NCBI GenBank assembly: GCA_902500995.1 | Contig: CABVSR010000006.1 | Coordinates: 62,001-126,000, forward strand | From: an uncultured Nitrospira sp. | Lineage (GTDB): Bacteria; Nitrospirota; Nitrospiria; Nitrospirales; Nitrospiraceae | Reading direction: 5' to 3' | Length of the DNA stretch: 64,000 nt | In this document: positions 4,369 to 47,936 of the stretch, piece after piece | How the letters are laid out: each line of letters begins with the position of its first letter | How positions within the stretch are numbered: position 1 is the stretch's first letter | The notes under the pieces: model-generated | Told to the model about the DNA's origin: nothing | Seen by the model: the letters and a program-made list of their open reading frames with translations, nothing else | Databases searched by the model: none | Program-made: the position numbers and the translations under genes

Positions 4369-7022
4369 CCCACACCGCGCTCCTCGATCAAGCGCTCGAC
4401 CAGCTCCCGTTCCTCCGCATCACTCGTCACTTCACCATCCAGCCTGGCCTGAGTCAATCGCTCCAGAATGGTGCGGTAACGGGGCCCGGGGCGCAAACCA
4501 AATGTCTTGAGCTCCGTTCCCGTCAGTGCCGGCTTCACGTGGCGATACGTCGTAAGGTACTGAGTCACGTGCCGCTTCGCGGTTTCGGAGGGAATCTTCG
4601 CGAGAAGGAACAACACACATTCCTCCGACAAGCTGCTCAACGTCGCGACCGTTTCCGAAGGCCGGAGCGGCGCGCGTCGGCTCAAGGTCCGGCACACGGG
4701 TTGGGTGAGGAATCGTGCCTGAGTGATCGCGCTCCGTTCCGCTTCGGTGAATGGGAATCGCCCGAGCATGTCACGGACGGCCTGATCCGGCAGGACTTCG
4801 GCGAGTGCCATGGCATAGACCAGCCACCGGTTGATGGGGTGATCGAGACAGGATAGCCGATACCAATCCAACGCCGCTTCCAGGTCGGTCACGCGTCGAC
4901 TCAATCGAGCCGACCAGGTCAGCTTGGGATGAATGAATCGCAACAGGTCGAGGTCGGCCAGACGCCGGACGGCGTGGCCGGGGGTACGCTCGGAAAAGAG
5001 CAACCGCAACTCATCCAACAGGCGATGGCCGGAGAGGCGATGGAACAGCTCCATCTTCACCGCGCCCTTGATCAACGCCGCTGTTTCCTTGCTCAGGTGA
5101 AAGTCGAATCGCAGCTCGAACCGGATGGCGCGGAAGACCCGCGTCGGATCTTCGACAAAACTCAGACTGTGAAGGACACGGATCAACCGCTCCTTCAAAT
5201 CGCGTTGCCCGCCGTAAAAATCGATGAGCCGGCCGAACGTGCGAGGCCTGAGCGCGACCGCCAACGTATTGATGGTGAAATCGCGCCGGTAGAGATCCTT
5301 CTTGATGGAACTTTGCTCCACCGTCGGCAAGGCCGTCGGATACTCGTAGTACTCGGTACGGGCCGTCGCCACATCCACCTTGAACCCGTCCGGCAGCAAC
5401 AGCACGGCCGTGCCAAACCGGTCGTGCGCCTTCACCCGGCCCGCGCGCTCCTTCGCGAACATTCGGGCAAAGGCAATTCCGTCACCCTCGACGACCAGAT
5501 CGACATCCAGATTGTCGAGGCCGAGCAACAGATCACGGACAAACCCTCCCACGACATAGAGATTCACGCCCAGCCGTTCCCCTAACTCACCTGCCGCCTG
5601 CAGCAAGTCATACACATGAGCCGGCAGCCGATCGCGCAGCAACCCTTTTAGTTCCCGCTTCCGTACGCCGCCGGGCGATTCCAGCCCCATCAGCGACTTC
5701 GGTTTACCGCGCGCCGCCGCCAGCACGTCGTCATGCAAACTGCGGAGCAAATCGGTCCGGGTAATGACGCCGATGGTTTTGCCGCCGGCCAACACCGGCA
5801 CGAAGCGCTGATTCAATTCGATCATGCGTGTCTCGATGTCATGAAACGGCGTGTCGGGCGACGCGGTGTATTGCCCGCTGCCGGCGAGATCTCCCACCAG
5901 CTGCGCTCCCAGCTGGTGAAACAACGCTTTCTGAACGATCTCCCGTGAAATCATGCCGACGTACAGGCCCTTTGCATCGACCACCGGCAGCACATTCACC
6001 CCGTAGGTGGTCATGGATCGTTCCGCCTCGCTCACCGTCAGATCCATGCCAATCGATTTGACGGGCGTGGTCATGACGTCGCGGGCCAACAACGTGGGGC
6101 GATACCGCTCGGTCAGCAGACGAGTCAGCTGTTCCTGCACTTCGACCAGCGTGCGGCCTTTGACGCTGGCCGCCGCCGCCACGGCATGTCCCCCGCCGCC
6201 GAATTCGCGGGCGATCCAGGCCACGTCGATCTCCGGCCTGCGACTCCGCCCGATGATCTGGATCTTTTCCTCCATCGCAATGGCCACGATCACGGCGTCA
6301 AATCCCTGCAGTTCCGCCAGGCGCTGAACCGCCTCGGCAAGGTCGCCCGTATAACGATCGTAGGCACTGGAGGCGACGAGAATTTTCCGGCCTTCCAGAT
6401 AGTAGATCTCGCCGGACTGAAGCAGGTCGTTCAGCAGCGCAATAAGATCCGGATCGAGCGGGTGTTGGAGCGTCTCCCCGACCCGATTCAAATCGGCACC
6501 CGCGCGCAGAACCAGCGAGGCCGCTTCCAGATCGCGCGGAGTCGTCGAGGGGTATGCGAGCGATCCTGTTTCTTCGTAGAGGCCTATCGCCAGCACGGTC
6601 GCCTCGGAGGCCGTGAGTGCCACCTGCTGCGCTTGCAGTCGCTCGATCAACAGCGTCACGGTGGCTCCTACCGGCTCAACATGCCGCTCCGTGACCATCG
6701 GCCAGGCCGAAGGCGCTGGATCGTCGCCGGCTCCATGGTGGTCGAACAGATGGACGGCCACATCCTTCCGTGCCGCCAGCACCTTCAGCGGACCGATCCG
6801 ATCGGGCTCTTGCACATCGACCAGAATCAATCGGCGCACCTGCTCGAGCGACACATCCTTGAGACGGCGGATGCCCAGGTCATTCTCGGCCAAAAAGTTT
6901 CGCACGGCCTCCTGCGCACCGCCTGGAAACACCAGGACGGCATCAGGATAGAGTTTTCGGGCCGCCACCATGGAGGCCAATCCGTCGAAGTCTGCATTCA
7001 GATGAGTCGTAATCAGATCCAT
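4365..7022 (-). CDS. DHH phosphoesterase / CBS / tRNA nucleotidyltransferase fusion
   Basis: An 885-residue multidomain protein. Residues 1-300 are a DHH-DHHA1 module (NADFDG at 9-14, DHHG at 94-97, GGGGH at 275-279). Residues 313-432 contain two CBS domains, which often bind adenylates. From about 455 comes a class II poly(A) polymerase/tRNA nucleotidyltransferase head with GGFVRD at 492-497 and the metal-binding DVD at 506-508, then the RNA-binding helical domain. Enzymes with this architecture act as A-adding or CCA-adding enzymes at tRNA 3' ends. Whether this one adds CC, A or CCA cannot be read with confidence. The DHH part suggests an additional phosphodiesterase activity (inference). 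ATG 7022 directly precedes the conserved N-terminus. Confidence 0.88.
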   Translation of the reverse strand: MDLITTHLNADFDGLASMVAARKLYPDAVLVFPGGAQEAVRNFLAENDLGIRRLKDVSLEQVRRLILVDVQEPDRIGPLKVLAARKDVAVHLFDHHGAGDDPAPSAWPMVTERHVEPVGATVTLLIERLQAQQVALTASEATVLAIGLYEETGSLAYPSTTPRDLEAASLVLRAGADLNRVGETLQHPLDPDLIALLNDLLQSGEIYYLEGRKILVASSAYDRYTGDLAEAVQRLAELQGFDAVIVAIAMEEKIQIIGRSRRPEIDVAWIAREFGGGGHAVAAAASVKGRTLVEVQEQLTRLLTERYRPTLLARDVMTTPVKSIGMDLTVSEAERSMTTYGVNVLPVVDAKGLYVGMISREIVQKALFHQLGAQLVGDLAGSGQYTASPDTPFHDIETRMIELNQRFVPVLAGGKTIGVITRTDLLRSLHDDVLAAARGKPKSLMGLESPGGVRKRELKGLLRDRLPAHVYDLLQAAGELGERLGVNLYVVGGFVRDLLLGLDNLDVDLVVEGDGIAFARMFAKERAGRVKAHDRFGTAVLLLPDGFKVDVATARTEYYEYPTALPTVEQSSIKKDLYRRDFTINTLAVALRPRTFGRLIDFYGGQRDLKERLIRVLHSLSFVEDPTRVFRAIRFELRFDFHLSKETAALIKGAVKMELFHRLSGHRLLDELRLLFSERTPGHAVRRLADLDLLRFIHPKLTWSARLSRRVTDLEAALDWYRLSCLDHPINRWLVYAMALAEVLPDQAVRDMLGRFPFTEAERSAITQARFLTQPVCRTLSRRAPLRPSETVATLSSLSEECVLFLLAKIPSETAKRHVTQYLTTYRHVKPALTGTELKTFGLRPGPRYRTILERLTQARLDGEVTSDAEERELVERLIEERGVG

Positions 7023-7141
7023 GCCGGCATTCTAGCAGGATCGAACAAATTGATTCAGGAGCAGGGCAGGAAGTTCATGTGACGTGATCCGCGATTGAGA
7101 GCGGTACCAACGCGAGGCAAGACGCATCGGGAGGAGTCAGA

Positions 7142-36104: not shown

Positions 36105-38246
36105 CTACTTTGAAGTCATTTCATAGACGCCGTCCCAACCCGGGGACGGGGGCATCTGGCTGTAATCGGTGGCGCGTTCGAGATAGACCCGTGACGGGCC
36201 ATCAGACGGGTCCAGTGTCACCGCCTCTGAAAACCTGGCGCAGGCAGTCGCGAAATCCCGCTTCTTATACGCCGCTAATCCTTCCAGATACCTATCGATG
36301 CCAGGTCGCCTCTTCTCCTCGACCTGGCCCTTGCGGGCCAGCAGCTCAAAGACCACGACCGGGTCTTTTTTGCCCTTCACTCGTAGCAGATCGATCTCCC
36401 GCACTTCAACGTCGTTCTTGGCCAGTTCGGCCGTCCGCTGGCCGATCAAAATCAGCGTGTCGTAATATTTGCTGGCGCCCTCCAAGCGCGAAGCCAGATT
36501 CACGCTGTCCCCGGTCACCGTGTACTCCATCCGTTCTTCCGATCCCATGTTGCCGACGATGCAGGGGCCGGAATTAATGCCGATTCGAGCCCCGATCTCC
36601 GGCAGGCCTTCCTGCTTCCAGATCTGACGGAGCCGCGCCAATTCCGCCTGGCAATCCAATGCGGCATAACAAGCCAGCGACGCGTGGGTGGGATCGTTCA
36701 GGGGCGCACCGAAAAGGGCCATGATGCCGTCGCCGAGATACTTGTTCACATTGCCGCGGTGCTGGCGCTTGATGATGGTCGTCATCGCCGACAGGTACCG
36801 GTTCAACAACGTGACCAGATCCTCCGGCGACATCTTTTCAGAGATCGTCGTGAAGCCGGCGATGTCGGAGAAGAGAATGGAAATCTCCTTCTTTTCTCCG
36901 CCGAGCTTGATGGCCGCAGGATTCCGCATGATTTCTTCGACCACCTCAGCCGACATGTATTTGTCGAACGCCGCCCGCATGAGCCGGCGCTGCTTGCCTT
37001 CCGTGACATATTCGACGGTGGCGGCCGTGCCGAACGTCAGTGCCAAGGCCACTTCCGGGAACACCAGCTCCAACCACCACTCATGCCCGGCAAAGGCATG
37101 GGCCACCAATGCGTAGTACGCGACAGCCAGCCCGATCGTGACGCCGAATTTGACCGGATAGGAAGGGAACAACATGAAGGCCCCGGCCGACGCGAGGCAG
37201 AGCAGCATGAGGATCGAGAGCGAAAACCAGGCAGGAGCCGTCTGAAGGGCTTGACCGTGAAGCAGATTGTCCAACACCGCCATGTGGATGAGCACGCCCG
37301 GGGTGGCGGACGAAAATGGTGTCACGCGCAGGTCGTACAATCCGGCAGCCGTCCCCGCGACAAACACAATTTTGTCCTTGAACAGCGAGGCATCCAGATC
37401 CGCTCGTTCCCCTTTTTCTTGCTGCGCAAAGGCCTGCAGAACCCGTCCGATGGAATATTTCCCGGCATGGTAAGTCTGCTCCAAGGAGCCATGCCAATCG
37501 ATCAGCAGATTCCCGTTGGCATCGAGTGGAACGGTGCGGCTGCCGATGTGCATGCGGTCGCGCTTGACCGCAACCTGGCTTGCGCCCAACACATATTGCG
37601 CCACCGCCAGGGAGAGATGCGGCACAAGATTTCCATTCACCTGACCCACTAAGGGAACACGGCGCGTGGGTCCATCCGCGTCGGCAGACAGATTGATCAC
37701 GCCCAGTCCCTGCGTCTGCTGCGCCAGCACAGGAATCGGTAGTTTCACGCCTTCATGCCTGGCAGGCCAAGCCTGTTCGATATCGGCTCGCTCGAGCTTC
37801 ACCGTGGCACGAGCCTGTAGCTCGGCCGAAATCGGAGCGGGCTCGGCCTGAAACAACATCGGCAGGAAGACATTACCCGCCGCCTGCATGTCGTCGGCAA
37901 AGGATTGATCGAACTCTTCGGCATTCTCGTCCGGTTCGAAAAACATCACGTCGAAGACGACCGCCTTGGCTCCCGCCCTCTTGAGATACCGCACGACATA
38001 GCCGTAGCGGTCACGAGGCCAGGGCCAGCGCCCGAACGCTTCCAGACTGGATTCATCGATGGCCAGCAGCAAAAGATTTGAATCGGCCTTGGCAGGATCG
38101 GCATGCCGCCGGACGAGATGATCGAACGCCTTGAGTTCCACCACTTCGAACCACCGGGTCATGCGGAGCCCCGCCACGAGGGCGTAGACCGCCATCCCGA
38201 CGGCGAGCGCGGAGAAGATTTTTTTGGTTCGTGGAGACAATGGCAT
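36105..38246 (-). CDS. CHASE2-domain class III adenylate/guanylate cyclase
   Basis: A 713-residue membrane cyclase: one N-terminal helix, a CHASE2 sensing domain (about 35-330; LLLLAIDESSLEAFGRWPWPRDRY in short form DESSLEAFGRWPW), three membrane spans to about 415, then a class III nucleotide cyclase catalytic domain with ISILFSDIAGFT, GDGIMALFGAP and TVTGDSVNLASRLEG, and a short TPR-like tail. It should make cAMP (or cGMP) in response to a periplasmic signal. ATG 38246 is used; an upstream TTG at 38252 is also possible. It stands downstream of the SH3/M48 genes with 25 bases between. Confidence 0.9.
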   Translation of the reverse strand: MPLSPRTKKIFSALAVGMAVYALVAGLRMTRWFEVVELKAFDHLVRRHADPAKADSNLLLLAIDESSLEAFGRWPWPRDRYGYVVRYLKRAGAKAVVFDVMFFEPDENAEEFDQSFADDMQAAGNVFLPMLFQAEPAPISAELQARATVKLERADIEQAWPARHEGVKLPIPVLAQQTQGLGVINLSADADGPTRRVPLVGQVNGNLVPHLSLAVAQYVLGASQVAVKRDRMHIGSRTVPLDANGNLLIDWHGSLEQTYHAGKYSIGRVLQAFAQQEKGERADLDASLFKDKIVFVAGTAAGLYDLRVTPFSSATPGVLIHMAVLDNLLHGQALQTAPAWFSLSILMLLCLASAGAFMLFPSYPVKFGVTIGLAVAYYALVAHAFAGHEWWLELVFPEVALALTFGTAATVEYVTEGKQRRLMRAAFDKYMSAEVVEEIMRNPAAIKLGGEKKEISILFSDIAGFTTISEKMSPEDLVTLLNRYLSAMTTIIKRQHRGNVNKYLGDGIMALFGAPLNDPTHASLACYAALDCQAELARLRQIWKQEGLPEIGARIGINSGPCIVGNMGSEERMEYTVTGDSVNLASRLEGASKYYDTLILIGQRTAELAKNDVEVREIDLLRVKGKKDPVVVFELLARKGQVEEKRRPGIDRYLEGLAAYKKRDFATACARFSEAVTLDPSDGPSRVYLERATDYSQMPPSPGWDGVYEMTSK

Positions 38247-38370
38247 GAACAAGACGGGCTCGACCCTGTAATCAGCGAGCTATGGTACTGGAGAATGGGA
38301 AGGAGGGAAAGAGGCAACAGGGGTAGGTTCGATTGGATCGTCGCCGCTGGGAGTCTTTTTCATCACCGTG

Positions 38371-39987
38371 CTAAGGAGCGTCATTCGCGCAACGAAATCC
38401 CAACGTCGGCCCCCAGTAGGTCATCTCATCCCATCCACGATACCCGGCGCGCAATTCCAGCGGCCGCTCCAGCCAACTGCCGCCTCGCAACACTCTGAAG
38501 GTTCCGCGCAGAGGTCCTTGCGGGTCGCGGGCCGGCGAGCTGCGGTAAAAATCTTCCGCATACCAATCCTTCACCCATTCCGAGACCTGTCCGATCATGC
38601 CGGACACGCCATAGGGGGAGCGGGACGCCACCGGCATGCCTACCGGCTCGACACCGTTAGGGGACACCTTCCCATCCACCAGCATGCCCCGACTCTTCTG
38701 GATGACGTCGTCCCCGTTGCCCCAGGGATACCGTCGGCCGTCGATTCCACGCGCGGCCTTCTCCCATTCGGCTTCCGTGGGTAATCGTTTGCCGGCCCAC
38801 TGGCAATAGGTCCGGGCCTGCATCCAGGTCACATCGGTCACGGGGTGTTCAGCATGCTGGGGATCATCGAAGGCCACGCGCACCTTGGGCGGGAGGCAGC
38901 TCTCTCCTTGCACGCAGGCTCGATACTGCCCGTTCGTCACCCCATGTTGATCGATCCAATAGGAGCTGAGATACAGGCGGTGGAGCGGCCGCGCATCGGG
39001 CAGGCCATCCTCCATCCCCATCAGAAATTCCCCGGCCGGAATCAGCACCATTCCGACTGGAGGCGTCAGGCCTTGCTCCGACAGCCGTTTCACGGCCTCC
39101 TGCTGCTCCGCCTGCAGTTGAGCATTCACTCGATCAATGGCCTCCTCTCCGACTGCGGGAGGTGGGTCAGACGGTCGGGCCAACGGCGCCGGCACACGGG
39201 CCACCGACGGCTGCCCGGCCCGCAGCGAATCCCCCATCGATGGAACCGCGGCGGACTGGCTCGTGGCGCCCGGCGGGTCAGACATACGAATGGTGTCGAT
39301 CCGTACTGAGGTCCGCGCCATGTCCAGCACGGGATCCCCGGTCGGCTTTCCCTTCTTGGATTCTTTTTTGACCCTGCCGATCGCAGAAAAATCGAAATCG
39401 GGAATGTTGGCCAACAAGGGCGTGGCGTAACTGATCGGCACGGCAAACGCCATGCCTTCCGGCACAATCCCTGACGGATGCGTAAATTTCGTGGTGAGAA
39501 TCCCGACGACTTCGCCTTGCCGATTGAAGACTGCTCCGCCGCTGTTGCCCGGGTTCACCGCCGCGTCCACTTGAAACACCCGTTGCACGCCTCTGGTCCG
39601 CACGGCGGCCACATGGCCCCGGGTGATCGTGGTTTCGCGCAACCCGAACTGAAAGCCGACGGCAATCACCTCCTGATCCAGTTTTACGGCGCCGGCATAC
39701 CCCAGCGGGGCCTCGGATAGTCCCACCGTTTCCGCCTTCAAGAGCGCGAGGTCATGCTCCGCATCCACACTGACGACGACCGCCGGCGCCCGAAACTCTC
39801 CCGGCGTCACGATCGTAATCCGTTTGGCAGCCGCGATCACATGATGCGCCGTGAGCACATATCCATCATGATGCACGATGACGCCACTGCCCGCCGGTTT
39901 CTCAACGGGCAACAGCGCGCGCTCATTGGCATCCCCACGATCACCAGTGCCCAGGAGGATGACGACTAGAGCCAGAACGATCTTCAT
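38371..39987 (-). CDS. Trypsin-like serine protease fused to an FGE-sulfatase (SUMF1) domain
   Basis: A 538-residue exported two-domain protein. After a signal peptide (IVLALVVILLG) comes an S1 trypsin-like protease with His in YVLTAHHVIAA, Asp in DAEHDLALLK and Ser in NPGNSGGAVFN. From about 310 follows a formylglycine-generating-enzyme-type/C-lectin-like domain (MVLIPAGEFLMG, RLPTEAEWEKAARG, WGNGDD, RGGSWLERPLELRAGYRG, GFRC). The FGE part lacks sign of the usual active-site Cys pair region and may be a binding or scaffold domain. The start overlaps the upstream DUF3365 stop by four bases (ATGA). Confidence 0.87.
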   Translation of the reverse strand: MKIVLALVVILLGTGDRGDANERALLPVEKPAGSGVIVHHDGYVLTAHHVIAAAKRITIVTPGEFRAPAVVVSVDAEHDLALLKAETVGLSEAPLGYAGAVKLDQEVIAVGFQFGLRETTITRGHVAAVRTRGVQRVFQVDAAVNPGNSGGAVFNRQGEVVGILTTKFTHPSGIVPEGMAFAVPISYATPLLANIPDFDFSAIGRVKKESKKGKPTGDPVLDMARTSVRIDTIRMSDPPGATSQSAAVPSMGDSLRAGQPSVARVPAPLARPSDPPPAVGEEAIDRVNAQLQAEQQEAVKRLSEQGLTPPVGMVLIPAGEFLMGMEDGLPDARPLHRLYLSSYWIDQHGVTNGQYRACVQGESCLPPKVRVAFDDPQHAEHPVTDVTWMQARTYCQWAGKRLPTEAEWEKAARGIDGRRYPWGNGDDVIQKSRGMLVDGKVSPNGVEPVGMPVASRSPYGVSGMIGQVSEWVKDWYAEDFYRSSPARDPQGPLRGTFRVLRGGSWLERPLELRAGYRGWDEMTYWGPTLGFRCANDAP

Positions 39988-40760
39988 GGTTTGACCGGCA
40001 GTAGCACGCTGATCGCCCCGGCGTTTTGTCCCAGAACGAGGCCTTCCCGGGGATAGCCCATGCGATCGGCCACCCCTTTGGGCTCGCCATGACAATCCAG
40101 GCAATGCCTCGTCGCATACAACGGAAGCATCAAACGAAAGGACGCGCTATTGGCCGACATCTCGCTGATGACGGTTTCCCGGGGGTAGGCCGCATCGGCA
40201 AACGCTTCCAAGGCGCCCCGTTCGTACGCGTCCGGACGATTGGCGGGGTTTCGAGGGGCCAGCGAGGTTTGTTTCAGTCGCACACCGGTGTGCTCGGTAA
40301 ACCGGGCCGACACCCGTGCGCCGAATGCGGCGGGAATGAAGCCGGTAAATTCGTTCGCCTCGGGACTGAGTTTCCGGCGGACATCGACAATCACCTGCCT
40401 GCTGGTCTCGACCAACTCGCGGAGCAGCCGTTTGGTGCGCGGGCCCAGAGCCGTATGATCCAACTCTTGCAGGTCGATCCCCGCCCGGCCTCGGAACATA
40501 TCCAACAGTTGCCGTTCGAAGGCCTCCGGCGTGAGGCCCTTGCCCTGTGATTCAGCCAACAGGATTTGATTATCGTTGATGACCGCTCGGCCGGAATCGA
40601 GGAGCACGGCGAGCAGACGAGCGGTTTGTTCGAGTTCAAGAATCGTTTGGAAGGGAATCGATGACCGTTCGGATTGCTCACCCCCCGAGGTCGGCGAGCC
40701 GGCGGTCAGCGCCCCTCCTGCCAGGAGACATGCCACCATCCACGGCAGACGACGTCGCAT
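39984..40760 (-). CDS. DUF3365 (Tll0287-like) exported c-type heme protein
   Basis: A 258-residue exported protein with a signal peptide (WMVACLLAGGALTAG) and a Tll0287-like/DUF3365 domain. The covalent heme-binding motif is CLDCH (CxxCH) near residue 222, in a family whose members often serve as the sensory half of kinases or as cytochromes. Here it stands alone and is coupled by ATGA to the protease-FGE gene, so it may report redox or gas state to that protein (inference). ATG 40760 is preceded by CAGGGG; the frame opening at 40844 is not needed. Confidence 0.86.
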   Translation of the reverse strand: MRRRLPWMVACLLAGGALTAGSPTSGGEQSERSSIPFQTILELEQTARLLAVLLDSGRAVINDNQILLAESQGKGLTPEAFERQLLDMFRGRAGIDLQELDHTALGPRTKRLLRELVETSRQVIVDVRRKLSPEANEFTGFIPAAFGARVSARFTEHTGVRLKQTSLAPRNPANRPDAYERGALEAFADAAYPRETVISEMSANSASFRLMLPLYATRHCLDCHGEPKGVADRMGYPREGLVLGQNAGAISVLLPVKP

Positions 40761-40904
40761 GGGTGACCCCTGATGCGTTCGCGTTGCGGGCTGTAGGGAA
40801 CCGTGCGCTGCCGCCCGCTTGAGCCGGATGGCAGCGCACGTCATGTGAATCGTACGAGTCGCTCAGAAACAAGTCAAGGCGCGCAGATGCCACACCCTCC
40901 GTCC

Positions 40905-41414
40905 TCACTGATTGGGTTGAATATCGATCATCACATTATCCGCATCCAATTCGATCGTCACGGGCATGCCTTCCTGAATCACCGACAGCTTGCTGCCCGC
41001 CAGGGTATCCACCTCGAACCGTTCGAACCCTTCCGGAGTGGAGATCTGGATTTCGCCCCAGAAGGGATCGGCATAACGCACGCGGCCAGCCAACGTCTTA
41101 TGGTTGGCAAAATCTTCACCACCCGGTTTGGTCGCGTCCAACAGCACGTTGTTCAAATCGATCAGCAACCACACTTCATCACCGACACGCGCCTCATGCA
41201 ATCCCACACGATCCGCCTTATTGGGGCTGATCGTCCGCATTTGCAGCCCATAGGGAGTCTTCACAAACAACAGCCCGCTTTCAATCTTGGTAATTTGCCC
41301 GTTCACGGCCAGGTGCATGCCGGGTGAGAACACCTCTGAAGGTTCCGCCCCGGCCGGTACCAAGGGCCACAAGACTCCGATCAACCAGACAAGAAGGCAC
41401 GCCGTCCGCTTCAT
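40905..41414 (-). CDS. Small secreted hypothetical protein, trio member 1
   Basis: A 169-residue exported protein: signal peptide (LLVWLIGVLWPLVPAGA, cleavage near residue 23) and a predicted beta-rich domain of about 140 residues (MHLAVNGQITKIESGLLFVKTPYG, ITIELDADNVMIDI). The hydrophobic-to-acidic pattern recalls small barrel or sandwich proteins, no family known to me. GGAGG five bases before ATG 41414. It follows two other small secreted genes in the same direction, each with an almost identical ribosome-binding site (AAAGGAGG). Confidence 0.75.
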   Translation of the reverse strand: MKRTACLLVWLIGVLWPLVPAGAEPSEVFSPGMHLAVNGQITKIESGLLFVKTPYGLQMRTISPNKADRVGLHEARVGDEVWLLIDLNNVLLDATKPGGEDFANHKTLAGRVRYADPFWGEIQISTPEGFERFEVDTLAGSKLSVIQEGMPVTIELDADNVMIDIQPNQ

Positions 41415-41454
41415 GGCAACCTCCTTTCATATCTCTTACGATCCGCCGTTCTGC

Positions 41455-41844
41455 TCAGTAGCCCGGCTCACTGCCCGGGGCCGGTGGGACGGTAATGCCA
41501 TACTCCTGAATCGGGGTGATCATGACGGCAAAGTTGAACAACTCATCGGCCGCGACATCATGAATGCCCTGATCACGAGCGCGCAGCATTTTGAACCACT
41601 TCCCCATCTCGCTCTTCACTGTCTTGGTATCCCCGCGGTCGACCGCCTCTTTCACCGTTTGCAGTCGTTGGCTATAGGGCTCCCAATTTGAACCGGGGTA
41701 GCTGGTTTTATAGAAATTCAGTGACCCGTTGATCTCGTCGACCCAGGTCGACTGAGCCAACGCAGTCCCCATGAGCAACGCCACACCGAGGCACAATCCG
41801 AATAACAATGCGAAGAGACCATATCGTTTGGTCTGACTGTTCAT
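41455..41844 (-). CDS. Small secreted hypothetical protein, trio member 2
   Basis: A 129-residue exported protein: signal peptide (FALLFGLCLGVALLMGTALAQ, cleavage near residue 31) and a helical mature domain (LQTVKEAVDRGDTKTVKSEMGKWFKML, short form AVDRGDTKTVKSEMGKWF) with a Pro/Gly-rich C-terminus. No family recognised. AAAGGAGG seven bases before ATG 41844. Forty bases separate it from each neighbour of the trio, so all three are likely on one transcript. Confidence 0.75.
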   Translation of the reverse strand: MNSQTKRYGLFALLFGLCLGVALLMGTALAQSTWVDEINGSLNFYKTSYPGSNWEPYSQRLQTVKEAVDRGDTKTVKSEMGKWFKMLRARDQGIHDVAADELFNFAVMITPIQEYGITVPPAPGSEPGY

Positions 41845-41884
41845 GGTACGCCTCCTTTACAATGGAATGATCCTGAGGGAACTC

Positions 41885-42214
41885 TCAGAAAGAGACTGCC
41901 GATCGACTGTCTGACTCTCGAGCATTGTCCGCATCGGTCGTGTCAGGCGTCTTCAGCATGTTCATGTCCCCGCCGCCTGGGGATCCGGTGTCCGGCGCCA
42001 TCAGCGGCCGGTCGAACCCCTTTTCCAGATCGATCGCAGCAGGCTCGTGGGTTATCACTCCTCCTTCTGGGATCGCCTCCTGTTTCAGCGCGGGCGTCTC
42101 GATCATCTGATCAGGATGGATCACTTGAGCTGGAGCCTGCACCGCAAACGAGGCCAACCACCCCACCCCCAGAGCGACGAACAGCATGCGTCCTATATTT
42201 GATCCGTGTTTCAT
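41885..42214 (-). CDS. Small secreted hypothetical protein, trio member 3
   Basis: A 109-residue exported protein: signal peptide (MLFVALGVGWLASFAVQAPAQ, cleavage near residue 29) and a short, acidic, largely unstructured mature part rich in Pro, Asp and Gly (ending PDTTDADNARESDSRSAVSF). Low complexity makes homology searching hard. AAAGGAGG ribosome-binding site seven bases before ATG 42214; the frame continues to 42400 without support. The first gene of the trio on the minus strand, 151 bases after the NarL-type regulator. Confidence 0.72.
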   Translation of the reverse strand: MKHGSNIGRMLFVALGVGWLASFAVQAPAQVIHPDQMIETPALKQEAIPEGGVITHEPAAIDLEKGFDRPLMAPDTGSPGGGDMNMLKTPDTTDADNARESDSRSAVSF

Positions 42215-42365
42215 CCTCAGTCCTCCTTTACGAAGAATGAGCGCGTCACACCGCCACCAACCGCGGCACTCATGACTGTAGTGGAAGATAGAACCGAAGC
42301 CTATTGCCCGGGGGATGGATTTGGGCTCAACCCTTCGGGTGATACGGAAGACCGAGGCGTGGGCG

Positions 42366-43010
42366 TTACCCGTTGCCGAGGTAGGCGAGCACGGCTTCAA
42401 CCCGCCCGCTGACTTTCAACTTTTGATAGGTATGATGGAGATGCGTTTTCACGGTATCGAGGGAGACACACAGTTGATCGGCAATTTCTTTATTGCTTCG
42501 GCCGGCGGCCGCGCAAGCCAGAATTTCGCGCTCCCGATCAGTCAACAGAGACAGCCCCCCCGGATCGGACCCGCCCTGTTGGCTCGCCAGGGACGCGGCC
42601 CGTTTGGCAAAACCATCCGGCATGAAGGCCGAGCGTACCGGCTTGCCCTGGTAGGTGGCCCGGATGATCCGCAGGAACTCCTGATGATCGGCATCCTTCA
42701 AAATGTACCCGCAAGCGCCGGCCTGCACGGCGGCGACGATACGGGCGTCGTCGTCATGCACCGACAGCATCAGCACGCGACACTGCGGCACACAACCGCG
42801 AATCAACCGGGTGGCGGTAATGCCGTCCAAACGCGGCATATCGACATCCATCAACACGATGCGTGGCTGTTGCGCCACGGCGAGGTCGAACGCTTGCCGA
42901 CCGTCCATTGCCTCGCCGACGACCACAATATCCTCCTCATGCTCGAGCAACATCCGCAAACTCTGCCGGAACAAGCGTTGATCCTCGGCGATCAGGATGC
43001 TGATAGACAT
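42366..43010 (-). CDS. NarL/FixJ-family response regulator
   Basis: A 214-residue regulator: receiver (ILIAEDQRLF; acceptor Asp in IVLMDVDMPR; Lys in YILKDAD) and a LuxR-type HTH (LTDREREILACAAAGRSNKEIA, DTVKTHLHHTYQKL). It should activate or repress transcription at dimer sites when phosphorylated. The ATG at 43010 lies before the stop of the partner kinase, with a 19-base overlap, which implies coupling. The frame from 43115 is a shadow of the kinase gene. Genes 41414-42214 just downstream are possible targets (inference). Confidence 0.9.
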   Translation of the reverse strand: MSISILIAEDQRLFRQSLRMLLEHEEDIVVVGEAMDGRQAFDLAVAQQPRIVLMDVDMPRLDGITATRLIRGCVPQCRVLMLSVHDDDARIVAAVQAGACGYILKDADHQEFLRIIRATYQGKPVRSAFMPDGFAKRAASLASQQGGSDPGGLSLLTDREREILACAAAGRSNKEIADQLCVSLDTVKTHLHHTYQKLKVSGRVEAVLAYLGNG

Positions 43011-45298
43011 GACTGCTCCTGCCTGACCGGCAAGGCGACCGTCAAGACGGCTCCGCCCGTGCGACGATTGCCGGCCGTGATGCGCCCGCCATGGGCTTCG
43101 ACCACGAGTCGGCAAAAATGCAGTCCGAGGCCGCGGCCGATCCGATAATCCTGGCCGTCCTTCTTCCGGAAGAACAGCTCAAAGACATGCGGCACCTCAT
43201 CCGGCGCAATGCCTGGCCCTTCGTCCTCAATACAGATGGTCACTAAGGAGCCGGGGGTCGGCGGACCAAGCGCCGTGGCGATCGACTCTGAGCCCTCTTC
43301 CACCTGCAGCGTGACGGTGATGGTGCCCTGCGGCGGCGAGTACTTGAGGGCGTTGTGCAGCAGATTGATCAAGACGCGTTGCAGCCGCCGCCCGTCTCCC
43401 CACACCCACACCTCGTCCGGCGGTTTGCACACCGCAAACCGCACGCCCTGCGCTTCCGCCTCGAAACGAAAGAGCCGCAAGGTTTCATGCAGGAGCAGGC
43501 CTGCCGCTACCGGGGCGGTGCTCAGCGGGAGTCCCGAATAGTGTTCCTGATAGACATCCAACATGTCGTTGATCATCCCGAGGAGAAGATCGGTCGTGAA
43601 ACGCAGATCTTCCAGGCAGCGACGTGGTAGGTCCGGCGCCATCTCCGGACGACCGCTGAGCCATTCGAGCGTTTTCTTGATCCCCGCCAAAGGATTCCGG
43701 ATATCGTGCGCGAACATCGACGCAAATTGACTCAACGACGCGAGCCGCTCGGATCGGAGTAATTGTTGCTCGAGAGCTTTCTGCTCCGTCAAATCACGGA
43801 GTTGAACCATGATGGATTCGAGACGGCCGACCTTCGTGACCGGTACGCAGTCGATTTCCATCGTCAGTTCGCCTCCCGGCGTCGGCACTCGCATCACGCC
43901 TGCCGATACCTCCGCGCCCTTGTGGCGCACCAGCTTCAGCTGGGCCTGCAGACGGGTACGCTCAGGCTCGGCCACAAGGTCGGAAACCGACCGGTGCAGG
44001 AGCGTCGAGGCCGGTCGGCCGAGCGTCATCTCGCCGCGCCCGTTCACATCCTGGATCACACCGAAAGGATCGACCAGAATTTTGGTGTCGATCGAATGGT
44101 TCCAAAGCAGCCGGTAGTGTTCCTCAGAGGTGGTGAGGTCGAGATTCGCCTGCTCCAGCCTTCGAACATATTGCGCCTTCGCCTGTGACGCCTGGTCCAA
44201 GCGCTGAGCGAGTTCATCGAAACTGGTCGCAAGCGTATCGATCTCCTCAACCCCGCACAGCTGGTCAGCCGACGCCGCCGGAGCCGCGGCAGGGATTGCC
44301 CCACCGGCCATCTGGTTGATGCGCTGAATCAGCATCCCGATGGGCCGCAGGATTCGCCGTCCCAGCCGCCAGCGCAACCAGACAATAAACACGGTCGTGC
44401 CGATCCAGAAAGCAGCAAGTTTGCCCAGCAATGCCGCCAATGGCTCGAATGTCTCCGCCGGATCCTGCTGAACGAGGATGGACCAAGCCGGCACCTGTGC
44501 CACTTGTCCCGGGAGCACGACAGGGGCCATGCCGATGATGCCCCCCTGCCCACCGTGGCTGTCGTGATCGACCAGCGTCCATCGGGCAGCGGCGCCCCCT
44601 GTCCCCTGCCGGGTGACATCCGCCGGAAGCGGCGTATGGAGGTTGGGCGCGAGCACAGAACAGGCGAGGATGGCGCCCTGCTCATCCAACAGCATCATGT
44701 GGCCTGTTCGGCCGAGTCGGCTTCCCAGGATCGAAGACAGGATGCGATCCGTCCCGATGACGACCTTGAGCACTCCACGAACCGGCTCACTCCGCTCGCT
44801 GATCGGGACCGCCACTTCCCAATAGCCATGGCCCTCCTCGTCAACCGTAAGCGGTCCTGCCCACGAACGCCCCTCCTGCACCACAGTCGTCCACCAAGGC
44901 TGCCTGGTGTAAAACCCTCTGGTGGAGTCACTCACCCGGCCCCCGACCAGCTGCCCGTCCGCCCGGACGATGGCGAGTGCATGAAAATAGCGATGCTGCT
45001 CTTCACGCCACCGCTCAATGGGCCGGGCCGTCTCCGCCGACAGCACGGCGCCTTCCACGGAGGCACGAAGATCAGGAAGCGCGGCAAGCCGTTGCACCCA
45101 TTCTATTTCTCCGGCGAGCAACAAGGCGGCCTTGTCGGCGCTTTGGCGGGCGATTTCCTGGAAGGTGGTCCCGACAGTGGTCTGCAAGGATTGCCTGGCA
45201 TGCCAGTAGGCATACGCAAGCCCCACGGTGCCGGAGAACAGTCCCACGGCAAGCACTGACAGGGTAAACAAACTCTGAAGACTGACCCGCTGGCGCAT
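42992..45298 (-). CDS. Cache/PAS sensor histidine kinase, partner of the NarL-type regulator
   Basis: A 768-residue membrane kinase: helix at about 8-30, a periplasmic Cache-type region (about 35-290), a second helix at about 290-308, a HAMP linker, PAS at about 390-505, HisKA with His531 (MFAHDIRNPLAG) and an HATPase domain (LLHNALKYSP, DEGPGI, GRGLGL). Sensor blocks shared with the kinase at 32505-34370 suggest recent duplication. The kinase feeds a NarL-type regulator, unlike its paralogue, whose partner is NtrC-type. ATG 45298 is the start; the frame from 45388 is not protein-like. The 205 bases to 45503 show no gene I can support. Confidence 0.9.
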   Translation of the reverse strand: MRQRVSLQSLFTLSVLAVGLFSGTVGLAYAYWHARQSLQTTVGTTFQEIARQSADKAALLLAGEIEWVQRLAALPDLRASVEGAVLSAETARPIERWREEQHRYFHALAIVRADGQLVGGRVSDSTRGFYTRQPWWTTVVQEGRSWAGPLTVDEEGHGYWEVAVPISERSEPVRGVLKVVIGTDRILSSILGSRLGRTGHMMLLDEQGAILACSVLAPNLHTPLPADVTRQGTGGAAARWTLVDHDSHGGQGGIIGMAPVVLPGQVAQVPAWSILVQQDPAETFEPLAALLGKLAAFWIGTTVFIVWLRWRLGRRILRPIGMLIQRINQMAGGAIPAAAPAASADQLCGVEEIDTLATSFDELAQRLDQASQAKAQYVRRLEQANLDLTTSEEHYRLLWNHSIDTKILVDPFGVIQDVNGRGEMTLGRPASTLLHRSVSDLVAEPERTRLQAQLKLVRHKGAEVSAGVMRVPTPGGELTMEIDCVPVTKVGRLESIMVQLRDLTEQKALEQQLLRSERLASLSQFASMFAHDIRNPLAGIKKTLEWLSGRPEMAPDLPRRCLEDLRFTTDLLLGMINDMLDVYQEHYSGLPLSTAPVAAGLLLHETLRLFRFEAEAQGVRFAVCKPPDEVWVWGDGRRLQRVLINLLHNALKYSPPQGTITVTLQVEEGSESIATALGPPTPGSLVTICIEDEGPGIAPDEVPHVFELFFRKKDGQDYRIGRGLGLHFCRLVVEAHGGRITAGNRRTGGAVLTVALPVRQEQSCLSAS

Positions 45299-45503
45299 GG
45301 CGGCAGGCCATAGGAAGTGATTGCGGCTTGACCGGCAGCTCGGGCCAAGCAGTGTGTGCGGCCCGGCTGAGCCCCGGCCCAAACGCAATGTGGGTTACGT
45401 CATGTCACACTCCACACAGCATGGTTGCTTGAGGTGATCCGCAAGCAGCACCCCTTCAGCATACAAAACTTCCGGCATCGAACATAGCCCCCCGGCCACT
45501 GGT

Positions 45504-47936
45504 CTATCGCAACTGGACAATCGTCACGCCGTCGCCCCCTTCTGCGCGGTCGCCCGGCCGGAAGGTCACGACATACGGCGAGGCCTTCAGGTACTCGCGC
45601 AAGGCACTTCTCAGCTTTCCCGTTCCATGCCCGTGGATGATGCGCACAAACGGGCTCCCGCCCAGAACGGCGCGATCCAGACCGGCAACCACCACATCCA
45701 AGGCATCATCGGCTGCCTGACCGCGCACATCCAAGGTTTCCTGGATGTCCTCAGAGGCCAACGTCTGGCTGGGTCGCCTTGAGGAACCGGCAGTCGTTTT
45801 GACCGGCACCGGCGGTTCCGGCTGCCGATTTCTGCGGCTACCTGTCAGACTCCCCACATTGGCCAATATTTCACCCTCGCCGACTTTCAGACGCACGCGC
45901 TTTTTGCCCTGGGGACTTTCGAGCAACGTCCCCGTCATGCCCAGCCCGACCACTTCAACCGCATCTCCGATGGAGAGCTGATCGACGGACACCGGCTCTT
46001 CCGACTCTCCAACCTCGCGCCGGACCGCCTGTTCCAATTCGACCAAGCGGGCTTTGGCCTCTTTGGCCTTGAGCAGTTTTTGATCGCGCTTCAGATCGTC
46101 CATCGTGGCTTGTACCGCGGCCCTGGCCCGTTGAAACTCCTGCGATAACTTTTTCTTCAACCCCTGCCGCTCATCCCGTTCGGACTCCTGCAGCAAGGCC
46201 AGCAACTCCTGCGCTTCGCGAGCAGCCTGTTCGGCCGCCTGCCGGGCGGCAGTCGCCGCCGTCAGGTCATCGGTGAGTCGCCGTTGTTTGTCCTGCAGAT
46301 CACTGAGCAGTGTCTCCAGCAACCGGTTGTCACCTTGCAGGCGCGCGCGGGCATCCTCCAGCAGCGACTGATCCATCCCGAGACGCCCGGCAATTTCGAT
46401 TGCAGCCGAGCCGCCCGGTTGCCCTTGGATCATCCGGTAGGTCGGCGAAAGGGTATCGAGATTAAATTCCACGCTCGCATTGGCGAAGCCCGGCCTGTCT
46501 TGGGCCAGGCCTTTCAACAGACTGTAGTGGGTCGTGGCCACCACCTTCGCACCAGCCTCCGCGAGCCGGCAGAGGAGCGCACTCGCGAGCGCCGCGCCTT
46601 CGGCCGGATCGGTGGAGGTCACCGGCTCATCCAACAACACCAGCGCCCGACCGGGAGGCAGCGGCATCCTGTCGCGGCCAGGCTCTGACCCCTCGGATAC
46701 TTCGTTCAATAACTGCACCATCTGTGTGATGTGGGCCGAAAAGCTGGACAGGTCGCGCGCCAGATCCTGCGCATCGCCGATGTCCGCGTAGACCGAGGGA
46801 AAGACCGCCATCTCTGACTCCGGGGCGCAAGGCAGGTGCAAGCCGCAACGGGCCATCAGCGCGAACAGCCCGAGTAACTTCAAGATCACGGTCTTGCCGC
46901 CCGTATTCGGGCCGGAAATGATGAGCACATGCACCGCTTCATCGAAGGCGAGGTCATTCGGCACGACCTGATCCTTGGTGACCACCAGAAACGGATGCCG
47001 AGCCTGCGTAATGACAATGCGCCCCTGATCATTGAGACGCGGGGGCGAGGCTTGGAGACGTTGGCTCAGACCAGCTTTGGCCGAGATGGCATCCAACCGG
47101 CCGAGCAGTGCCACACTCCCGGCCAACGCCGGTTGATGAGGCGCCACCAGCGCCGACAGTTCGCGCAGGATTCTGCGTACCTCGCGTTCGACATCCAGGT
47201 CCACGACTTTGATGGAGTTATTGAGATCGACGAGTTCGCGAGGCTCCAGAAACAGCGTGGCGCCGCTGGACGACACATCGTGCACGATGCCCGGCATCCG
47301 GCCCTGCATCTCGGCCTTGATGGGGACCACGTAGCGCCCTTCCCGCTGGGCAAAATACCGTTCTTGCAACACTTCTTCATACCGCCGCGAATGCAGGATC
47401 TGTTCGAGCCGGTGCCGCATCTGCTGCTTGAAATCATTGGCCCGCTGGATCAACCGGTGCAATTCCGGGCTGGCCGATTCACGGATGGATCCGTCGGGAT
47501 CGATGGCGGCGTTCAGCGCGGCCGTCAGCCGGCGATACTCCGCAATCGGTCCCAACTGGGCGGCCATGGCGCCGACGGTCGGCGCGGCGGCCTGATGACG
47601 GAGCAGATACCGCTGAACCTCCACGATCAGATCCAACACCAACGCGATATCCCTCAGCTCTTGCGCCTCCAAACAGGCGCCTTTCGCCACTCGCCCCAAC
47701 CAGGTGGTCACGTCGGGAAATCGCAGGACGGGGAAGGGATCCACGTTGGCCCGCAGGCGCAGCATGTCGGAGGTTTCCTCCTGGCGGAGCCGGGCCTGCG
47801 CGACGTCCCGCTCCAATTCCATGGCTCGGCATTGCTCTGCGCCGACGGTCGATTGGGCATAGGTTGCCACCAGATCCAACAATTTGGCCCATTCCAACAC
47901 CTTACAGGCCTCAGCCTGGAGTCTTTCAGATTGCAT
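45504..47936 (-). CDS. mutS2: MutS2 family endonuclease/ATPase
   Basis: An 810-residue MutS2 protein, which acts in suppressing recombination or rescuing stalled ribosomes rather than mismatch repair. A MutS core with Walker A GPNTGGKT (about 343-350) is followed by a long coiled coil and a C-terminal Smr nuclease-like domain (LDVRGQAADDAL, RIIHGHGTGKLR). The Walker B segment reads DEPVTSTDP (about 437-445), while most MutS2 proteins have DELGAGTDP-like sequence, so two usually conserved glycines are replaced. GTG 47939 and ATG 47936 are adjacent candidates; GGAG is placed for 47936. Confidence 0.93.
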   Translation of the reverse strand: MQSERLQAEACKVLEWAKLLDLVATYAQSTVGAEQCRAMELERDVAQARLRQEETSDMLRLRANVDPFPVLRFPDVTTWLGRVAKGACLEAQELRDIALVLDLIVEVQRYLLRHQAAAPTVGAMAAQLGPIAEYRRLTAALNAAIDPDGSIRESASPELHRLIQRANDFKQQMRHRLEQILHSRRYEEVLQERYFAQREGRYVVPIKAEMQGRMPGIVHDVSSSGATLFLEPRELVDLNNSIKVVDLDVEREVRRILRELSALVAPHQPALAGSVALLGRLDAISAKAGLSQRLQASPPRLNDQGRIVITQARHPFLVVTKDQVVPNDLAFDEAVHVLIISGPNTGGKTVILKLLGLFALMARCGLHLPCAPESEMAVFPSVYADIGDAQDLARDLSSFSAHITQMVQLLNEVSEGSEPGRDRMPLPPGRALVLLDEPVTSTDPAEGAALASALLCRLAEAGAKVVATTHYSLLKGLAQDRPGFANASVEFNLDTLSPTYRMIQGQPGGSAAIEIAGRLGMDQSLLEDARARLQGDNRLLETLLSDLQDKQRRLTDDLTAATAARQAAEQAAREAQELLALLQESERDERQGLKKKLSQEFQRARAAVQATMDDLKRDQKLLKAKEAKARLVELEQAVRREVGESEEPVSVDQLSIGDAVEVVGLGMTGTLLESPQGKKRVRLKVGEGEILANVGSLTGSRRNRQPEPPVPVKTTAGSSRRPSQTLASEDIQETLDVRGQAADDALDVVVAGLDRAVLGGSPFVRIIHGHGTGKLRSALREYLKASPYVVTFRPGDRAEGGDGVTIVQLR

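Follow-up and report, generated by a model that had tools for sequence, protein, structure and literature searches.

A conserved DNA element suggests control of three unnamed exported proteins by an adjacent two-component system in Nitrospira

Genes of the locus

Three small open reading frames, P3, P2 and P1, run on the minus strand from 42214 to 40905 of the window (the whole 64,000-nucleotide stretch of DNA analysed here), as they had been delimited in the first-pass annotation. P3 (41885..42214, 109 aa) encodes a predicted exported protein, acidic and of low complexity, whose aromatic C-terminus is conserved; P2 (41455..41844, 129 aa) a predicted exported helical-bundle protein, the most widely kept of the trio; and P1 (40905..41414, 169 aa) a predicted exported all-beta protein of one unit, whose relatives in the same family include two-unit proteins of ~320 aa. 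The P3/P2 and P2/P1 gaps are 40 bp each. A codon-usage gene caller trained on the neighbouring genes called all three, placing the P3 start internally at 42187.

The matching ribosome-binding sites noted earlier for the trio are present: AAAGGAGG occurs four times in the 64 kb (both strands), and three of the four are at the P1, P2 and P3 starts. If the starts set by the gene caller are used, 2 genes out of 55, P1 and P2, have it in front, and P3 joins them only from its first ATG. Among genus orthologues the exact AAAGGAGG is found for 17/22 P1, 3/21 P2 and 0/21 P3 genes, and GGAGG for 18/22, 21/21 and 21/21, respectively, although the choice of starts favoured such sites. By inspection, the N-termini of all three proteins read as Sec type I signals, in agreement with the signal peptides proposed before, and all three proteins score below the Pfam and NCBIfam cut-offs, as expected of proteins described as having no recognisable domain.

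The NarL-type pair said to precede the trio lies directly upstream on the same strand. The NarL/FixJ-type response regulator (42366..43010, minus strand) is above the Pfam cut-offs for both Response_reg (91.4 bits) and GerE (69.1 bits). The histidine kinase (42992..45298, minus strand) has a Cache-like periplasmic part followed by HAMP, PAS, HisKA and HATPase_c; PAS, HisKA (40.3 bits) and HATPase_c are above cut-off, HAMP is below it (21.4, cut-off 25), and the periplasmic part matches dCache_1 at 33.0 bits (E 5.8e-8), under the cut-off of 45. The HisKA_3 domain of NarX/NarQ-type kinases was not found in this kinase by Pfam at E ≤ 1, and a comparison of its periplasmic part with the PDB gave only a chance match (E 0.35).

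Behind P1 follow two further minus-strand genes. The first (39984..40760) encodes a Tll0287-like, heme-c Cache protein (PF11845, 80.7 bits, cut-off 24.1) whose translation carries the CXXCH heme motif as CLDCH, for which heme attachment is predicted. The second (38371..39987) encodes a predicted exported fusion of a trypsin-like protease with an FGE-sulfatase domain, both above cut-off in the one protein (Trypsin_2, 111.2 bits; FGE-sulfatase, 178.4 bits).

Structures and relatives of the three proteins

AlphaFold2 models agree with the earlier description of P1 as beta-rich and P2 as helical; the disordered, acidic type given to P3 is read from composition only. The P2 model (pLDDT 82) has helices at residues 34-48, 55-70, 73-89 and 96-109, and the P1 model is all-beta at low confidence (pLDDT 64). 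Nothing usable was obtained from profile searches of PDB sequences with P1 (best E 0.083) or P2 (best E 0.017), the Foldseek list for the P1 model was noise (best E 0.47), and no PDB match to protein P0005 reached E ≤ 0.01. We rejected TOBE (PF03459) for P1, its best Pfam score of 14.9 bits being under the cut-off of 22.3. FIMAH (PF22888) gave no Pfam match in P2 and scored 16.1 and 16.9 bits in two distant P2 paralogues, below the cut-off of 24.8.

The best structural match to P2 is the four-helix bundle of the GH92 mannosidase NnGH92 (PDB 7nsn, PMC10167667), with a VIA-align Z of 9.4 over 85 residues at 2.6 Å and a Foldseek probability of 0.95 (E 0.68). The two share 13% identity, and P2 stands alone whereas the NnGH92 bundle is, as far as the excerpted source describes it, a domain of the mannosidase. 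VIA-align Z values below 13 are common among helical bundles, and the best Z of P2 against its Foldseek matches, 9.4, lies in the range that unrelated bundles give.

Of the 34 P3-like proteins gathered, 33 have Phe or Tyr as the last residue, and a stretch of the type acidic-xP-M/L-xxP-acidic is common to most of them. The lone protein with a different end comes from locus L126 and probably does not belong to the group. P1 has relatives in the same genome (L002-L006) and in many family genomes, a large share of them carrying a pair of P1-like units in ~320 aa; the named close relatives are from Nitrospira, including Candidatus Nitrospira defluvii.

Distant P2 relatives with Cys and His sit in clusters with cupredoxin-like proteins. 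In L146 (G104), L147 (G012) and L156 (G030, near 3.81 Mb) several such relatives are interleaved with cupredoxin-like proteins, and a gene for a PAS-LuxR-type regulator is found near the clusters of L147 and L156. The one cupredoxin-like protein from such a cluster that was searched reaches 17.2 bits for Cupredoxin_1, below the cut-off of 27.

Gene order across the genus and family

Within the genus the locus has the order MutS2, kinase, regulator, P3, P2, P1, Tll0287-like and trypsin-FGE, with some loci cut by contig ends; the heme-c and protease genes are thus members of the trio's conserved neighbourhood. The trypsin-FGE gene keeps its place in most loci reaching that far, and genes for a CHASE2-cyclase and an SH3 protein follow it in most genus loci that extend to them. 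Orthologues of the kinase, regulator, P2, P1 and heme gene are found in the same 23 of 29 genus genomes, and P3 and the DNA element described below in 22 each, P3 being one short because the contig of G092 starts inside P2. For the other six genomes, the element and orthologues of the kinase, regulator, trio and heme gene are absent at the cut-offs, and distant relatives of the genes are present. These six may represent one lineage, so they should not be taken as six independent losses; the genomes are related, and the counts given here are therefore not independent. The cut-offs for the regulator and heme gene are visible gaps in the score lists, those for the kinase (1e-80) and P3 (0.001) are search cut-offs, and those for P1 (1e-46), P2 (1.1e-27) and the element (1e-3) were set by judgement, with counts made by hand.

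Across the 147 family genomes, matches at E ≤ 0.001 were found for P1 in 123 (including distant two-unit relatives), P2 in 66 and P3 in 24. Orthologues of the regulator number 81 (E ≤ 8.2e-66; next matches at 4.2e-42), of the kinase 47 (E ≤ 1e-80) and of the heme gene 46 (E ≤ 4.6e-74; next at 1.4e-55). The P2 profile matched 23 of 245 phylum genomes at E ≤ 1e-5, every one of them in the same family.

In other genera the regulator is followed, with varying completeness, by a longer second P2-type gene (~163 aa, with a cysteine pair at its C-terminus) and by P3-like, P2, P1, heme and protease genes. P1 and P3 are absent or strongly diverged in some genera that keep the kinase, regulator, P2 and heme gene, and in several genomes without P1 the kinase, regulator, P2, heme gene and protease still stand in order. 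The trio had been expected to recur as a set, and a search of other genomes bears this out: the order kinase-regulator-P3-P2-P1 is kept throughout the genus and partly in other genera, and its members co-occur instead of being scattered.

A membrane protein of 316-325 aa lies upstream of the kinase, regulator or P3-like gene in loci of other genera (L124, L125, L127, L128, L130, L208, L210, L211, L213, L214 and L217); the one searched (L128) has no Pfam match. The upstream protein of 317-324 aa matches a 282-aa protein of a cupredoxin cluster at E 0.005 over 36 residues, a match that leaves kinship unproven.

A double dyad ahead of P3

Alignment of 20 sequences of the gap between the regulator and P3 revealed a conserved 45-bp block with diverged flanks. 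This element consists of two inverted copies of an 18-bp dyad, dyad 1 upstream (42326..42343, minus strand) and dyad 2 (42303..42320, minus strand), with centres ~23-25 bp apart. By profile comparison, dyad 1 aligned with inverted dyad 2 has a mean identity of 0.60, and the next best placement reaches 0.39.

A −10-like hexamer, TACAGT (42275..42280, minus strand), lies downstream of dyad 2, with dyad 1 centred ~55 bp before it, and belongs to the candidate promoter of P3-P2-P1. All 58 copies counted, which are related to one another, have TAnnnT behind the AT of dyad 2, at 22 bp (n = 46) or 23 bp (n = 12); when the downstream bases were shuffled 1000 times, no 4-bp window contained more than 10 copies. 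The 58 leave out the second L125 copy, the L167 copy (7 mismatches) and the elements of L212 (G016) and L220 (G096), the latter two being neither behind a regulator nor ahead of a P-type gene. No −35 box was seen before P3 in the element copies compared, and a generic promoter scan is silent here because it requires one. If the hexamer is the −10 box, with its first base at about −12 of an estimated transcription start, the dyads would lie near −43 and −67. In L126 near 6700-7140 (G012), direct repeats with CCGCCGGTTCAACCAAAGGTTGG occur between the regulator and P2.

Inverted repeats of this kind can be drawn as hairpins, and the two halves could pair in two ways in an RNA attenuator or other leader structure. 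We consider this reading very improbable: no Rfam match was found in 38000-46000, and the −10 hexamer stands at a fixed spacing downstream, which would put the element outside the transcript of that promoter. An operator, bound as DNA, remains the preferred reading.

Distribution of the element and the regulator

A profile of 40 module copies of the element (R1) finds one strong site in its own genome (E 9.5e-12), the next match (E 0.135) being a 28-bp partial one. At E ≤ 0.01, R1 has matches in 62 of the 147 genomes of the family; in the phylum it matches 26 of 240 genomes at E ≤ 0.001, 24 of them in the family and two outside it with weak, partial matches. By hand count, 54 family genomes carry the element at E ≤ 1e-3, and 53 of these have a regulator orthologue, the exception being G016; in G096 the regulator and the match lie apart. 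Tested against the regulator (81 genomes with, 66 without), the element gives a nominal Fisher p of 4.6e-18, a value that ignores kinship. The remaining 28 of the 81 regulator genomes lack an R1 match at E ≤ 1e-3, a search whose strict filters lose weak matches. Among the 20 of these that were read, 14 have a dyad 1 close behind the regulator that beats all 200 shuffles, and 6 do not.

In other genera the element recurs ahead of the first gene after the regulator, and extra copies occur. Copies outside the training set precede long P2-type genes away from the kinase and regulator in G058 (E 4.6e-12), G075 (E 4e-11) and, more weakly, G077 (E 1.1e-5), a cluster with P1 first in G027, and the second cluster gene in G079, G119 and G002. 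At L218 (G027), the kinase, regulator and element are followed by MauG-type, Rieske and Rieske_3/molybdopterin oxidoreductase genes, with no trio.

A different regulator might bind the element, which would then lie behind the present regulator gene through gene order alone. Four genomes seem to favour this, in that, at the cut-offs used, P2 and the heme gene persist in G103, and P2, P1 and the heme gene in G019, G031 and G011, with neither regulator nor element. We nevertheless hold it to be improbable, since the element lies directly behind the regulator gene even in genomes without trio and kinase, nearly every genome with the element carries the regulator, and the recognition helix of the regulator, in the sequences compared, is nearly invariant over the same genera. 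Binding by the adjacent regulator therefore remains the reading we prefer.

The locus could also be a chance neighbourhood, in which a two-component pair happens to adjoin the genes of three exported proteins that are unrelated, as the absence of any named sequence family common to the three might suggest. This we regard as hardly credible: it is contradicted by the order and co-occurrence across the genus and beyond, and by the common operator.

The element in a sister genus

The regulator is found in 36 genomes of the sister genus g6, one per genome, at 54-67% identity. The element still lies behind its gene, with neither kinase nor P2-P3 alongside. In the family genome searches, g6 had no kinase orthologue at 1e-80 and no P3, and P2 was limited to distant matches in single genomes; several g6 genomes have P1 relatives (41-47% identity) away from the regulator.

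In 20 of 29 g6 loci, the next gene encodes a membrane protein of 39-45 aa with one hydrophobic segment, in a frame that has a ribosome site and lies 163-192 bp behind the regulator stop (L208-L211, L213-L217, L221-L225, L227-L230, L232 and L234). This count comes from reading the listed frames, in which the microprotein was not found at the other 9 of 29 loci; a strict automated pattern finds it in 5 of 29. The operator is thus kept while the gene that follows it differs.

A separate promoter for the heme gene

The gap between P1 and the heme gene contains a predicted σ70-type promoter, TTGACT-N17-TACGAT (40849..40877, minus strand), which differs from that of P3. TTGACTT-N16-TA(C/G)nAT is present in 22 of 22 genus loci, and 10 of 11 stretches from other genera have TTGACTT and TAnnnT with that spacing (1 base longer in one of them), the eleventh ending right behind TTGACTT. 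In the leader, a hairpin (40803..40839, minus strand) shows two-sided changes in 8 of 12 pairs over the 22 genus loci. Its support is this covariation, as in the one sequence folded it is not unusually stable for its composition (z −0.5). A hairpin of different sequence precedes the heme gene in other genera, as judged by eye only.

Because the heme gene has this separate conserved promoter, P3-P2-P1 is predicted to be a transcription unit of its own, although some read-through from P1 into the heme gene may occur. An animal-haem-peroxidase-like gene follows trypsin-FGE in genus g10 at L166 (An_peroxidase, 214 bits, the only one tested), and similar frames are present at L165, L171, L172, L173 and L177 of g10.

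The contrast between the two promoters bears on the direction of control. The regulator might bind the element and repress the P3-P2-P1 promoter, dyad 2 covering the place of the −35 box; its centre is ~31 bp ahead of the −10 hexamer and so overlaps that region. There is, however, no −35 box to cover in any of the P3 copies compared, and as the heme promoter in the same loci has TTGACTT, the missing −35 is not a habit of the lineage. Promoters without a −35 box usually need assistance, and a pair of sites placed like these is typical of activation. Repression is accordingly the unlikely alternative, and the regulator probably acts as an activator.

Discussion

The conserved element ahead of the trio suggests control by the two-component system next to it. 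That the three genes are co-regulated through the neighbouring regulator had been offered as an inference in the first-pass annotation, and it gains sequence support from a conserved operator and promoter between the regulator and P3. Because the operator follows both the regulator gene and P-type genes independently of each other, we think it very likely that the trio is regulated by this regulator through the operator. The locus thus appears to be a lineage-specific two-component regulon of unnamed exported proteins, as read from comparative sequence analysis.

In the mechanism we propose, the kinase would sense a periplasmic condition through its Cache-like domain and phosphorylate the NarL/FixJ-type regulator, as is usual for these families. 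Dimers of the regulator may then bind the two inverted dyads, ~43 and ~67 bp before the transcription start, and activate the −10-only promoter to give a single P3-P2-P1 unit; here the operator is supported by conservation and activation would follow from the promoter layout. The three proteins would be exported by virtue of their signal peptides. The heme-c Cache and protease-FGE proteins, with what conservation indicates is a constitutive-type promoter of their own, would act in the same compartment as the trio. Taken as a whole, a dedicated two-component switch for a set of periplasmic proteins seems to us a likely reading, with somewhat less confidence than the regulatory link itself.

What the set responds to is a more tentative matter. 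The trypsin-FGE neighbour and the peroxidase-like gene of g10 point to the envelope and oxidants, and a periplasmic redox or envelope-stress response is possible, if rather doubtful. The accessible part of a 2026 preprint assigns a redox-type role to stand-alone Tll0287-like/sCache_heme proteins and describes strong NO binding in a tested sCache_heme form fused to signalling parts (PMC12889525). The heme neighbour shares with the stand-alone form described there the domain, the CXXCH motif and the lack of a fused signalling part, and, unlike the sCache_heme proteins in that text, it is encoded in a fixed setting that also includes a kinase, the trio and a protease-FGE protein. A bolder and improbable proposal is that P2 and P1 are periplasmic accessory proteins which, with the heme-c Cache protein, report redox state or NO load to the kinase, P3 being a disposable messenger that an envelope protease, for instance trypsin-FGE, reads through its conserved aromatic C-terminus. 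If true, the lineage would have a periplasmic signalling system of its own, built from protein families that, in the sampling used here, have no known relatives beyond the Nitrospira family.

A gene cluster that contains a two-component system and unknown proteins, NITMOv2_3614-3631, appears in the excerpted text of PMC12342949. A literature search of open-access text found no paper on a Nitrospira regulator-operator pair.

In soils and wastewater, Nitrospira drive the oxidation of nitrite, a reaction that takes place in the periplasm; to our knowledge, little has been established about periplasmic sensing and regulation in these bacteria. The locus opens a practical way into a so far unexplored periplasmic response of nitrite-oxidizing Nitrospira, with a regulator for which the genome has just one strong predicted site and with three unnamed families of exported proteins.

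Two-component systems of the NarL/FixJ type that control a neighbouring operon include FixLJ, MctSR and NarXL. The system described here resembles them in its receiver and GerE output domains, in a regulator that adjoins its predicted target, and in an inverted-repeat operator ahead of a σ70-type promoter. It differs from NarX-type kinases in carrying HisKA, with HisKA_3 not listed, and from all of these systems in three respects: its operator is a double inverted dyad, its predicted targets are exported proteins of no named family, and the same operator precedes a membrane microprotein in a sister genus.
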